This document shows positions 18,760-23,233 of a stretch of DNA of 28,507 bases, piece by piece (position 1 is the first letter of the stretch; each line of letters begins with the position of its first letter). The translations under genes were made by a program, and so were the position numbers. Origin of the DNA: a virus; the IMG/VR virus record IMGVR_UViG_3300020182_000142, positions 1 to 28,507 of that record, one strand, 5' to 3'. A model generated the notes under the pieces. It was given only the letters and a program-made list of their open reading frames with translations. It was not told the origin of the DNA and ran no database searches.

Positions 18760-19053
18760 ACTCCTCTTAGTTAGTGGACTTGCACTATGGCATGAAAATG
18801 CGATATCGGCAACCTTTTCATGAAAAACTGGAAAATACTGTTGTGAGGGGCAGCAGCGACGACGCAGGGGGGGTGGGGGCAAGGGGTGGGTCGCGCGCGC
18901 GGGCGTGGGTGCGCGTGTGCGCGCGGGCGCAGGCGTGTGGGCGGGTGCGCGTGCGTGTGCGCGGGCGTGCGCGTGGGGGTGGCATGTCTGCCTGTTGCGC
19001 CCAGGTGGCTCACATGACCCGATCCCATGCCCTCAACATGCCCTCAGAGGCTC
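18753..19053. other. Gene-free 301-base gap with G-rich, nearly A-free tract
   Basis: No convincing gene lies here; open frames across it are low-complexity Arg/Ala/Gly or Thr/His/Pro by-products of the base bias. Positions 18867-18890 hold four G runs of at least three (7, 5, 4 and 3) with short loops, a canonical quadruplex pattern on the + strand. Positions 18891-18980 contain 52 G, 23 C, 14 T and one A, with alternating purine-pyrimidine stretches (18909-18925 and 18945-18963) favourable to Z-DNA. The leftward transcript is correspondingly C-rich. At 19026-19046 CATGCCCTCA is repeated twice with an 11-bp period. The gap separates the initiator gene from the SSB-like gene. Confidence 0.8.
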
Positions 19054-19899
19054 TCAGGTTGGATCTGAGCGCTTTTTGATGCCAGCTAATAGCGACCTAG
19101 CCATAGGGTTCGGAACGCGCCTCAGAGAAGCTTTGACGATCTCCTCGAAGTATGCCACCGACCGAGGCCAGTCCTGTCGTTTCTCACGGCACTTGGCCGC
19201 TTGCTTGCCCAGCAGGTGCCGCCATTCAGCTTCCAACAACCCGTGACTGATCCAGGTCGACATCATCGCTTGATCACGCTCACTGATTGTCCTGTGCTGT
19301 CCAAGAGTGTCAGCAGTTCGAAGAAAGTGATTACAGTAAACTTTAACCATGATCTTAAAGTCATCGTTATACCCCGTTAGTGTCTCGTTTAGTGCAACCT
19401 CTGACATTGCAGGTTGCGCAACCTCAGAAGTTGCACCTGGCGCTTCAGAAGTTGCACCTGATACGGATTCACCTGCAACCCTAGAAGTTGCACCTGCAAC
19501 CCCAGAGATTGCACCTGATTCTTCGCTTAAGGCTATCTGATGGGCGGCTGTTTGGGTGCTGTAAGCCTCTTCCTCAGTGGTCACATCGGGATCATATATG
19601 ACCTTGACGGAGCTTGTTTTCTGATCCTTGTACCGCTTCCTGGCGTGCACCCAGTAACCCAGGTCGAACAGAAGCTTCAGTTGCTTATTGACAGCCTGGC
19701 GCGATATGCCCAGGTCAGCCGCTAGCCGGTCCTGACTGACAAAGGTTACGCCGTTCCTGTCGACATACGAGCACAGCGCAGCGAGCACGTGGAGCGCCCT
19801 GGTGCGGTTTATGCGCTTATCCATCACAGCGTTAAACGGCAAGATCGAATACTTCCTAAGATCTTTTGGTTTGATGTCATCCGGTCTCACGGCAGCCAC
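19054..19899 (-). CDS. Replication initiator, lambda O-like
   Basis: The product is 281 residues, probably from GTG 19899 (GTG 19890, overlapping the upstream stop as GTGA, is the alternative; neither has a good ribosome-binding site). The N-terminal 110 residues are a winged-helix DNA-binding domain (LRKYSILPFNAVMDKRINRT, GVTFVSQDRLAADLGISRQAVNKQLKLL, GYWVHARKRYKD). Residues about 125-175 are a repetitive Gly/Ala/Ser/Val linker (GATSEVA-type units). A separate helical C-terminal domain follows (GYNDDFKIMVKVYCNHFLRTAD to the end). This three-part plan, with the repeats of the linker at DNA level resembling iterons, is that of lambda O, which binds its own gene and recruits helicase loading. 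No helicase loader or helicase is recognised nearby. Confidence 0.7.
   Translation of the reverse strand: MAAVRPDDIKPKDLRKYSILPFNAVMDKRINRTRALHVLAALCSYVDRNGVTFVSQDRLAADLGISRQAVNKQLKLLFDLGYWVHARKRYKDQKTSSVKVIYDPDVTTEEEAYSTQTAAHQIALSEESGAISGVAGATSRVAGESVSGATSEAPGATSEVAQPAMSEVALNETLTGYNDDFKIMVKVYCNHFLRTADTLGQHRTISERDQAMMSTWISHGLLEAEWRHLLGKQAAKCREKRQDWPRSVAYFEEIVKASLRRVPNPMARSLLAGIKKRSDPT
19321..19375. other. AT-rich stretch beside the iteron-like repeats (candidate unwinding element)
   Basis: The 60 bases 19321-19380 hold only 20 G or C, against more than half in the flanking parts of this gene. It lies about 25 bp beyond the last repeat in the coding direction of the initiator, the side on which lambda has its AT-rich unwinding region. 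It also encodes the start of the C-terminal domain (DDFKIMVKVYC). Confidence 0.5.
19400..19520. repeat. Iteron-like repeats inside the initiator gene (candidate origin)
   Basis: The motif AGAAGTTGCACCTG recurs with CACCTG boxes at 19434, 19455, 19470, 19491 and 19512, that is at spacings of 21, 15, 21 and 21 bp. A degenerate copy (CTCTGACATTGCAGG) starts near 19400. Spacings are multiples of three because the repeats encode the linker of the initiator. The units at 19424-19439 and 19445-19460 match over 16 bases. They resemble the O-binding iterons of lambda in size, number and location. Confidence 0.65.
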
Positions 19900-21406: not shown

Positions 21407-21457
21407 CCCACTGACGAGGCCCCGTGACAGGGGCCGAAACGCCGCAAGGCGTCTGGG
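21407..21457 (+). ncRNA. Type I hammerhead ribozyme 1
   Basis: All hammerhead parts are present in order. Stem I 5' strand is CCCA (21407-21410) and the core box CTGACGA (21411-21417). Stem II is GGCCCC/GGGGCC (21418-21423, 21430-21435) with loop GTGACA, followed by GAAA (21436-21439). Stem III is CGCC/GGCG with a GCAA loop (21440-21451), closed next to the core by A21439-T21452. The cleavage triplet is GTC (21451-21453) and stem I 3' strand TGGG (21454-21457). Cleavage is expected between 21453 and 21454. It lies between two genes, leaving a 33-nt leader with a good ribosome-binding site on the ArdC message. Every conserved core base is as expected. Confidence 0.93.
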
Positions 21458-21486
21458 AAGTCAAACACAAACCAGGAGCGAGACAC

Positions 21487-22350
21487 ATGAAAACAGATGT
21501 TTACCAGGAAGTAACCAACCAGGTCGTCGAGATGATGGAGACAGCCGGCGCCAATTGGATCAAGCCCTTCGAAGCGCTGGCGGGCGGTATGCCAATGAAT
21601 GCAACGACTGGCAACGAGTACCGAGGAATCAATGTGCTATTGCTGGCAATGGCTGGCGGTCAGCATTGGGCCAGCTTCAAGCAATGGCAGACGAAAGGCG
21701 CCCAGGTTCGCAAGGGCGAGAAAGGAACGCGCATTGTGTTCTTCAAGATGCTAGAACGCGAGAACGCCAAGGGCGGCACCGATAAGTTTCCGATGATCCG
21801 CTATTCAACCGTATTCAGCGCCGACCAGGTCGACGGATGGGACGCACCAGCAGCCCCAGAGCGCCCCGTCTCAGCCGTTGAGGCCATCGCAGCCGCCGAT
21901 GCCTGGGTTGAGGCTACCGGCGCCGAGGTACGATTCAACGACCACGGCCGATGCTTTTACTCACCAGGCCAGGACTTTATCAGCATGTCTCAGCCGTCAA
22001 GCTTTACCGCAACGCCTACCAGCACACAGAGCGAACTGTACTATGCGACTTTGCTTCATGAGCTGACGCACTGGACCGGCTCAGAGCACCGCCTGGCGCG
22101 CACCAAGGGCAAGCGCTTTGGCGATGATGCCTACGCAATGGAGGAATTAGTCGCCGAGCTTGGCGCCGCTATGCAATGCGTAATGCTTGGCGTCACCAAT
22201 GAACCACGCGAGGATCACGCGCACTACCTCAACGGATGGCTTACAGCCTTGAAAGGTGACAAGCGCCTAATATTCACCGCCGCAGCCGAAGCCCAGAAAG
22301 CTTGCGACTTCATCAAAAACCTACAGCAGAGCGCGGCAGCAGCCGCGTAA
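21487..22350 (+). CDS. ArdC-like antirestriction protein
   Basis: The product is 287 residues from ATG 21487 after CCAGGAG; the upstream in-frame GTG at 21424 is inside the ribozyme and rejected. The N-terminal domain (TNQVVEMMETAGANWIKPFEALAGGMPMNATTGNEYRGINVLLL, KQWQTKGAQVRKGEKGTRIVFFK) is the ssDNA-binding ArdC N domain. The C-terminal domain is a zincin-like metallopeptidase fold with HELTHW (HExxH, around residue 191) and the downstream Glu region (AMEELVAELGAAM). Plasmid ArdC protects incoming DNA from restriction. Its early position fits defence of the entering genome. It is the main gene between the two ribozymes. Confidence 0.9.
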   Translation: MKTDVYQEVTNQVVEMMETAGANWIKPFEALAGGMPMNATTGNEYRGINVLLLAMAGGQHWASFKQWQTKGAQVRKGEKGTRIVFFKMLERENAKGGTDKFPMIRYSTVFSADQVDGWDAPAAPERPVSAVEAIAAADAWVEATGAEVRFNDHGRCFYSPGQDFISMSQPSSFTATPTSTQSELYYATLLHELTHWTGSEHRLARTKGKRFGDDAYAMEELVAELGAAMQCVMLGVTNEPREDHAHYLNGWLTALKGDKRLIFTAAAEAQKACDFIKNLQQSAAAAA

Positions 22351-22382: not shown

Positions 22383-22631
22383 ATGAGCGATCAATTAAAA
22401 CTTATTCTCAGCTACCGCAAGAACGAAGGAACAGAGCGCAAGCCTGTTTGGGGCGAATGGAATTGGGATTCCTATTCTCCGATCGACAGCGTCGACGGCA
22501 TTGTCACAATCACCCAGAAATACAACTGGGAGCGCGAAGTTTACCGGGACTTAGATTGGAAGCTAGAGGCCGGTTACCTGGCCCCTAATGGTAAGACCAC
22601 CCAGGCTGAGATCGTTTATCAACCCTGCTGA
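22383..22631 (+). CDS. Small early protein of unknown function
   Basis: The product is 82 residues with CAGGAG before ATG 22383. It is rich in Trp, Tyr and charged residues (KPVWGEWNWDSYSP, KYNWEREVYRDLDWKLEAGY) and looks beta-rich. No family is recognised. Its TGA stop (22629-22631) is part of the CTGATGA box of the second hammerhead ribozyme, and its last codons form one strand of ribozyme stem I. Confidence 0.7.
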   Translation: MSDQLKLILSYRKNEGTERKPVWGEWNWDSYSPIDSVDGIVTITQKYNWEREVYRDLDWKLEAGYLAPNGKTTQAEIVYQPC

Positions 22632-22678
22632 TGAGATCCAGTGGTACGGATCGAAACGCCGTGAGGCGTCCAGGAAAC
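22614..22678 (+). ncRNA. Type I hammerhead ribozyme 2
   Basis: Stem I 5' strand is CCTG (22624-22627) and the core box CTGATGA (22628-22634). Stem II is GATCC/GGATC (22635-22639, 22648-22652) with an eight-base loop, followed by GAAA (22653-22656). Stem III is CGCC/GGCG with a GTGA loop (22657-22668), closed by A22656-T22669. Cleavage triplet is GTC with cleavage between 22670 and 22671; stem I 3' strand is CAGG (22671-22674). Stem I can extend by GTTT/AAAC (22614-22617, 22675-22678) across a six-base bulge, where type I ribozymes usually have loop contacts. It leaves a 27-nt leader on the next gene. The same 51-nt design as ribozyme 1 with different stem II and stem I sequences shows covariation. 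Confidence 0.95.
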
Positions 22679-22697
22679 CAACAGAGGAGTGAGACCA

Positions 22698-22940
22698 ATG
22701 TTCGAGACAGAAACCTACCGTATCCCGCACTTTGCCATCGTGGCGCTACTGTATGACGATTACAGCGGCATTCAAGACGATGACGAGGCATTCGTCGACA
22801 ACCTGCAATCCTGGCTTGACGAAGAGCATGGCGCGGGCCAGTGGCATATTGGGGATGTATCCGAGCCTTACCATGGCCGCGCTGATTTTGAGCGCATCCT
22901 GGGAGAGATCTGCAACGTCAGCATCGAGGTGCGAATATGA
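22698..22940 (+). CDS. Conserved small phage protein
   Basis: The product is 80 residues from ATG 22698, preceded by GAGGAG; a GTG at 22689 is less likely. The sequence (YRIPHFAIVALLYDDYSGIQDDDEAFVDNLQSWLDEE, ending in a short beta segment) is acidic. Proteins with the pattern aIvaLeYgDySGLsDeDe...ld occur in many phage early regions without a known function. It is the first gene after ribozyme 2 and overlaps the next gene as ATGA. Confidence 0.65.
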   Translation: MFETETYRIPHFAIVALLYDDYSGIQDDDEAFVDNLQSWLDEEHGAGQWHIGDVSEPYHGRADFERILGEICNVSIEVRI

Positions 22941-23125: not shown

Positions 23126-23233
23126 TTTTTGGCCTGACCTTTCTAGTGTGTTAAAGCCGGCCTGAACAGGAAAGTATAACTGACACCGAGCGGATGCAAG
23201 GCCGCACCAACTTAAACCAGAGGAGCGAAAACG
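23126..23233 (+). other. 108-base gap with possible RNA structure
   Basis: No gene fits here. GGCC with inner CTTT pairs with AAAG and GGCC (about 23131-23163), giving an interrupted stem. A second hairpin GCGG/CCGC lies near 23190-23205. A TATAAC box near 23176 could be a -10 element but has no good -35. AGAGGAG before the YqaJ gene ends the gap. No hammerhead core is present, although it has the same kind of position as the two ribozyme gaps. Confidence 0.4.

Follow-up and report, generated by a model that had tools for sequence, protein, structure and literature searches.

The window, that is, the whole 28,507-nt stretch of viral DNA analysed (IMG/VR record IMGVR_UViG_3300020182_000142), is a podovirus-like contig encoding a head-tail adaptor (phrog_332), a major head protein (phrog_3437) and terminase. 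The rightward gene order begins with a 95-aa gene, the hammerhead ribozyme HHR1, a gene for an ArdC antirestriction protein, an 82-aa gene and a second hammerhead, HHR2, which is followed by an 80-aa gene, a 62-aa gene and genes for a RecE-like exonuclease and a RecT-like annealing protein (Table 1). HHR1 and HHR2 are both on the + strand, each between consecutive phage genes; no third hammerhead core was found, by eye or with the descriptor described below, before the RecE-like gene (23126–23233). The INPHARED set of named phages contains no proteins related to those of the neighbouring genes, and blastn against this set, with the ribozyme DNA as query, yielded no more than chance-level matches. 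Elsewhere in the window, ARAGORN calls a tRNA-Pyl (19436–19517, −) inside GTTGCACCTG-like repeats of an ORF (19054–19899, −), probably spuriously, and a stretch of ~100 nt made up of GTGCG/GGGCG simple repeats (18880–18980), close to this ORF's left end, is possibly an origin or control region.

Table 1 Features at and around HHR2 (positions in the window).
Feature	Position	Strand	Basis or remark
Companion ribozyme HHR1, stem I CCCA/UGGG	21407–21457	+	Descriptor, covariance model
ArdC-type antirestriction gene between HHR1 and HHR2	21487–22350	+	Pfam ArdcN and MPTase-PolyVal, phrog_7245
Upstream 82-aa gene, without family match	22383–22631	+	ORF; relatives in 6 viral contigs
HHR2, complete type I hammerhead ribozyme, 51 nt	22624–22674	+	Descriptor scan, covariance model
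HHR2 stem I 5′ strand CCUG; encodes end of upstream ORF (..Q-P-C-stop)	22624–22627	+	Sequence
HHR2 catalytic core CUGAUGA (C3–A9)	22628–22634	+	Sequence
HHR2 stem II GATCC/GGATC with 8-nt loop AGUGGUAC	22635–22652	+	Strands 22635–22639 and 22648–22652
Loop II UGGU, 5′ half of HHR2 pseudoknot	22642–22645	+	Covariation in relatives
HHR2 core GAA (G12–A14)	22653–22655	+	Sequence; invariant in alignment A1
HHR2 stem III ACGCC-GUGA-GGCGU	22656–22669	+	Sequence; pairing in relatives
HHR2 C17, predicted cleavage 3′ of this base	22670	+	Position in hammerhead consensus
HHR2 stem I 3′ strand CAGG; predicted 5′ end of downstream product	22671–22674	+	Sequence
Tail ACCA, 3′ half of pseudoknot with loop II	22677–22680	+	Covariation in relatives
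Downstream 80-aa gene, ribosome-binding site AGAGGAG	22698–22940	+	DUF6926 match weak, below cut-off

HHR2 reads CCUG-CUGAUGA-GAUCC-AGUGGUAC-GGAUC-GAA-ACGCC-GUGA-GGCGU-C-CAGG (22624–22674), with a complete core (C3-UGANGA-9, G12-A13-A14, A15.1-U16.1, H17) and type I topology, in which stem I is open and stems II and III are capped. The sequence-only reading of this DNA had proposed a second complete hammerhead here, ahead of a small gene and built on the same 51-nt plan as HHR1 (21407–21457); the plan is evident from the sequence, and the descriptor scan, covariance model and covariation presented below bear out the ribozyme. As that reading also held, stems I and II differ in sequence from those of HHR1 and retain their pairing, and the cut that it placed at 22670/22671 agrees with the position of C17; the stem III sequence is the same in both ribozymes. 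The TGA stop codon of the 82-aa gene (22629–22631) doubles as U4-G5-A6 of the HHR2 core, and the start codon of the 80-aa gene lies 27 nt past the predicted cut.

Detection and conservation of the hammerheads

A permissive hammerhead descriptor (core and three stems of 3 bp or more), scanned over both strands of the window, matched HHR1 and HHR2 only, compared with an average of 0.027 matches in shuffled windows; with stems of at least 4/5/5 there were no matches in 300 shuffles. Our own covariance model, trained on 33 relatives, none of them from the window, scored HHR2 at 66.4 bits (E = 1.4e-19) and HHR1 at 69.5 bits (E = 1.3e-20), and gave no other match in the window. The Rfam model RF00163 (Hammerhead_1) scores HHR2 at 25.1 bits, short of its gathering score of 34, which is a database cut-off and not a biochemical defining feature; HHR1 is not listed. 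No gathering-level Rfam hammerhead is reported in 15 related loci that hold ~37 hammerheads, which makes under-annotation of this phage subclass probable.

A chance hammerhead-like sequence could be argued from this Rfam score and from the folding stability of 22610–22682, which is no better than that of shuffles (z −0.5; the two thermodynamic z-scores for HHR2, −0.5 and −1.5, are uninformative). This explanation is extremely improbable: the score from the out-of-sample model refutes it on computational grounds, and the descriptor results against shuffles, the relatives, the pseudoknot pairing and the stem covariation are all contrary to it. In a secondary-structure model from which the pseudoknot is excluded, the probability of the hammerhead fold is 0.62 for the ribozyme alone, 0.02 within 22600–22700 and 0.0006 within 22560–22720. 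The flanks are thus predicted to compete with the hammerhead fold, so that folding during transcription should be important, as should the pseudoknot. On sequence grounds, HHR2 is a genuine type I hammerhead of the known phage kind, with cleavage predicted.

Relatives were collected with exact-pattern scans that set no pairing requirement on stems I and II. At least 119 stretches matched in viral contigs in each of two scans, and 31 in bacterial genomes; among the matches listed, 105 of the 127 loci first fetched (denoted by L numbers) contain at least one hammerhead with complementary stems I and II. In 26 gap-free relatives (alignment A3), 94.5% of cells across the three stems plus the pseudoknot are paired (74.7% after shuffling) and 111 cells are double-changed (29.5 after shuffling), with stem I 96.9% paired and double-changed at all five of its pairs. 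The eight-sequence subgroup that includes HHR1 and HHR2 has 97.9% of cells paired versus 87.4% after shuffling, with changes on both sides at 10 of 18 pairs, and its stem II is 100% paired, with changes on both sides at four of five pairs. Stem III is 100% paired in alignment A4, where two pairs are double-changed. Compensatory changes in the relatives have preserved each of the three helices that surround the core, and the proposal that structure rather than sequence is conserved is supported by both covariation and the covariance model. An extra U is present between A9 and stem II in hammerheads of L309, L311, L312 and L317, up to several per phage, and is a recurrent core-insertion variant.

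The loop II-to-tail pseudoknot and placement at gene boundaries

The sequence-only reading had further suggested that stem I is extended by GTTT/AAAC pairing, which could provide a peripheral contact. GTTT (22614–22617) and AAAC (22675–22678) are pairable only across a 6-nt one-sided bulge, such pairing occurs in relatives at the rate expected by chance (8 of 84, versus 8.05 after shuffling), and L114, L128, L130 and L006 lack GTTT yet have kept the ribozyme; the extension was rejected. As a peripheral contact it is refuted by the relatives, in which the covarying contact is a pseudoknot between loop II and the 3′ tail; AAAC overlaps ACCA, the segment that covaries with loop II. In HHR2, loop II UGGU (22642–22645) is complementary to the tail ACCA (22677–22680), and in HHR1 the equivalent segments are UGAC (21425–21428) and GUCA (21460–21463). 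At least four Watson-Crick pseudoknot pairs can form in 53 of 84 ribozymes, compared with 14.6 expected when tails were dealt anew among the ribozymes (2000 deals; maximum 25). Pairs in relatives include UGAU/AUCA, UAGU/ACUA, UAGUU/AACUA, UGAUU/AAUCA, GGAUA/UAUCC, CGGAU/AUCCG, UGAAU/AUUCA, UGGGC/GCCCA, UCGC/GCGA and UUGGCUU/AAGCCAA. This covariation supports the UGGU/ACCA pseudoknot as the putative stem I–stem II tertiary contact. Shortening of such a pseudoknot in another hammerhead makes it 20- to >100-fold slower, and a compensatory change restores the rate (Perreault et al. 2011, PMC3088659); given this mutational effect, the loop II-to-tail pseudoknot is likely the speed element of HHR2.

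Placement relative to genes follows two rules, a ribozyme at the upstream stop codon and a start codon ~19–34 nt past the cut. In 188 of 234 relatives' ribozymes (random positions: 7%) the upstream stop codon ends within −12 to +7 of C3, and the start codons of these 234 cluster 19–34 nt past the predicted cut; 204 have both a nearby ORF stop and a nearby ORF start, versus 31% of random positions. Overlap of core and stop codon as in HHR2 (+4 placement) is found in 40 of the 234. For the 82-aa gene, relatives in all six viral contigs have a hammerhead at the stop codon, and L127 carries this gene in an unrelated neighbourhood with a hammerhead of another loop subclass at its stop codon.

As the upstream stop codon is core U4-G5-A6, a terminating ribosome would mask the core, and HHR2 might therefore be a translation-coupled switch, cut only when the upstream gene is untranslated. 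The overlap here and in the 40 relatives, the 80% of ribozymes with a stop codon within −12 to +7 of C3 and the predicted ability of upstream coding sequence to compete with the ribozyme fold (secondary-structure model) are consistent with such a switch. It is nevertheless unlikely: compact phage gene spacing by itself places stop codons there, the stop codon of many relatives ends 4–6 nt before C3, in or just outside the stem I strand and in variable phase, and the tandem ribozymes of Perreault et al. cut during in vitro transcription without ribosomes (PMC3088659).

Evolution of the site and stem I within phages

All seven loci encoding an 80-aa protein of at least 98% identity keep HHR2, even though L128 has a different upstream gene and that of L130 and of L114 varies. 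The window and L128 are homologous from the 5′ edge of HHR2 stem I onward. Relatives of the 80-aa gene at 86–92% identity mostly have a GGGCC-UUCG-GGCCC hairpin in the HHR2 slot, directly upstream of the gene (L131–L137, L141–L143), a few having nothing, and in more distant relatives the slot is without hairpin or ribozyme. Since the ribozyme is missing at 51–92% identity of the 80-aa gene, it is not essential to that gene. A general association of hammerheads with ArdC was not seen, the descriptor giving no match in seven distant ArdC loci. At the HHR1 position before ArdC, L301 and L302 carry a terminator-like GGGGGC-gcaa-GCCCCC hairpin with a T-rich tail.

Absence of the ribozyme from many relatives of the 80-aa gene and from the seven distant ArdC loci, and homology between phages that often stops exactly at ribozyme edges, would suit a ribozyme carried along passively with gene cassettes, either decaying or evolving neutrally and without a selected role. 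We regard this as highly unlikely, because the core is intact in HHR1 and HHR2, compensatory change keeps the stems and pseudoknot, and the seams are no commoner there than at other gene junctions (29% vs 30%). Hammerheads as recombination hot spots were rejected on the same comparison, the rate at which homology ends being equal.

In 45 contigs with at least two hammerheads (including L308, L309, L311, L175 and L087), 4-nt identity of stem I is 0.845 within versus 0.562 between phages (39 of 45 contigs, p = 5e-8), while stem III has no within-phage excess (0.659 vs 0.643). The stem I excess persists for pairs differing in both stem II and stem III (26 of 28 contigs), which speaks against recent duplication as the sole cause. 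All 5′ strands can pair with all 3′ strands in 26 of the 45 contigs, versus 4.75 expected, and the nine ribozymes found within 4.2 kb of L308 have a single common stem I; the focal phage (CCCA/UGGG, CCUG/CAGG) is at best a weak case. No report of this within-phage pattern was found in the literature searched. A genome-specific common stem I, with its split strands interchangeable and the closed stem III free to differ, is proposed tentatively, at less than even odds. If true, the ends of cut mRNAs could be joined again in cis or in trans, giving circular or shuffled mRNAs, or alternatively gene cassettes could be swapped at the DNA level with every ribozyme left unbroken; the shared stem I may reflect re-ligation or cassette exchange.

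Applied to HHR2, re-ligation would have the released 5′ end anneal to the stem I strand in the following ribozyme to yield circular or trans-joined mRNAs. The commonness of stem I but not of stem III in the 45 contigs, the arrangement in L308 and pairing of at least 4 bp between the 5′ end of a segment and the next ribozyme (54 of 79 cases, versus 17 expected) point in this direction. This role is decidedly unlikely here, given that HHR1 and HHR2 are weakly cross-compatible (G.U, U.G, C-G, C-G one way; broken the other way), that DNA-level gene exchange at junctions could also favour a common stem I, and that Perreault et al. sought circular and spliced products and found none (PMC3088659).

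Probable transcript processing and comparison with known systems

We consider it probable (roughly two chances in three) that HHR2, as a type I hammerhead stabilised by its pseudoknot, cuts an early polycistronic phage transcript co-transcriptionally into separate mRNAs. The transcript of the early ArdC/recombination operon would cleave itself at 22670/22671 during synthesis, HHR2 acting as a protein-free processing site at the gene boundary. The upstream product would comprise ArdC and the 82-aa gene and finish in the complete, folded ribozyme, terminated by a 2′,3′-cyclic phosphate, while the downstream product, from the 80-aa gene onward, would have a 5′-OH and a 27-nt leader with the ribosome-binding site. 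Cleavage in the cell might also affect the stability of the mRNAs. HHR1 would be an equivalent processing site upstream of ArdC.

Processing is the best-supported reading because of the architecture, the placement, the hairpin substitution in sister phages and the published activity of tandem prophage hammerheads. Those on either side of ardA cut themselves both in vitro and in E. coli (PMC3088659), a halovirus transcript has its 5′ end at a hammerhead cut (PMC3088659), and processing of polycistronic phage RNA by prophage hammerheads was already proposed in 2011 (Perreault et al. 2011, PMC3088659). Against processing, the flanks are predicted to favour competing folds, relatives of the 80-aa gene at 51–92% identity lack the ribozyme, the HHR2 core would be masked for a time by any ribosome that terminates there, and 4 of the 18 consensus hammerheads assayed in 2011 showed no activity in vitro (PMC3088659); what hammerheads do in prokaryotes and phages was still called an open question in 2017 (PMC6155905). 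The placement rules, covarying pseudoknot and substitute hairpin make the mRNA-processing idea directly testable.

In phage T7, RNase III sites in the early mRNA, which are hairpins between early genes, give rise to separate mRNAs with folded 3′ ends. They are a functional parallel with no family relation, the HHR2 cut being predicted to be made by the RNA itself, enzyme-free. RF00163 has the same core and open-stem I topology as HHR2, which scores below its gathering level. The HHphage ribozyme of haloviruses HF1 and HF2 (PMC3088659) is likewise a hammerhead just upstream of an early gene, where the transcript 5′ end is the predicted cut, but has a variant core and an archaeal host (PMC3088659). 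Phage hammerheads beside antirestriction genes are already known, having been described in 2011: prophages of Agrobacterium tumefaciens and others carry several same-strand hammerheads around small phage genes, including an antirestriction gene, with a pseudoknot joining the stem I side to stem II and suggested polycistronic RNA processing (PMC3088659). Unlike the prophage tandems that flank ardA, the ribozymes described here, known from sequence, flank an ArdC gene (metalloprotease type), are both type I and lie in a podovirus-like contig.
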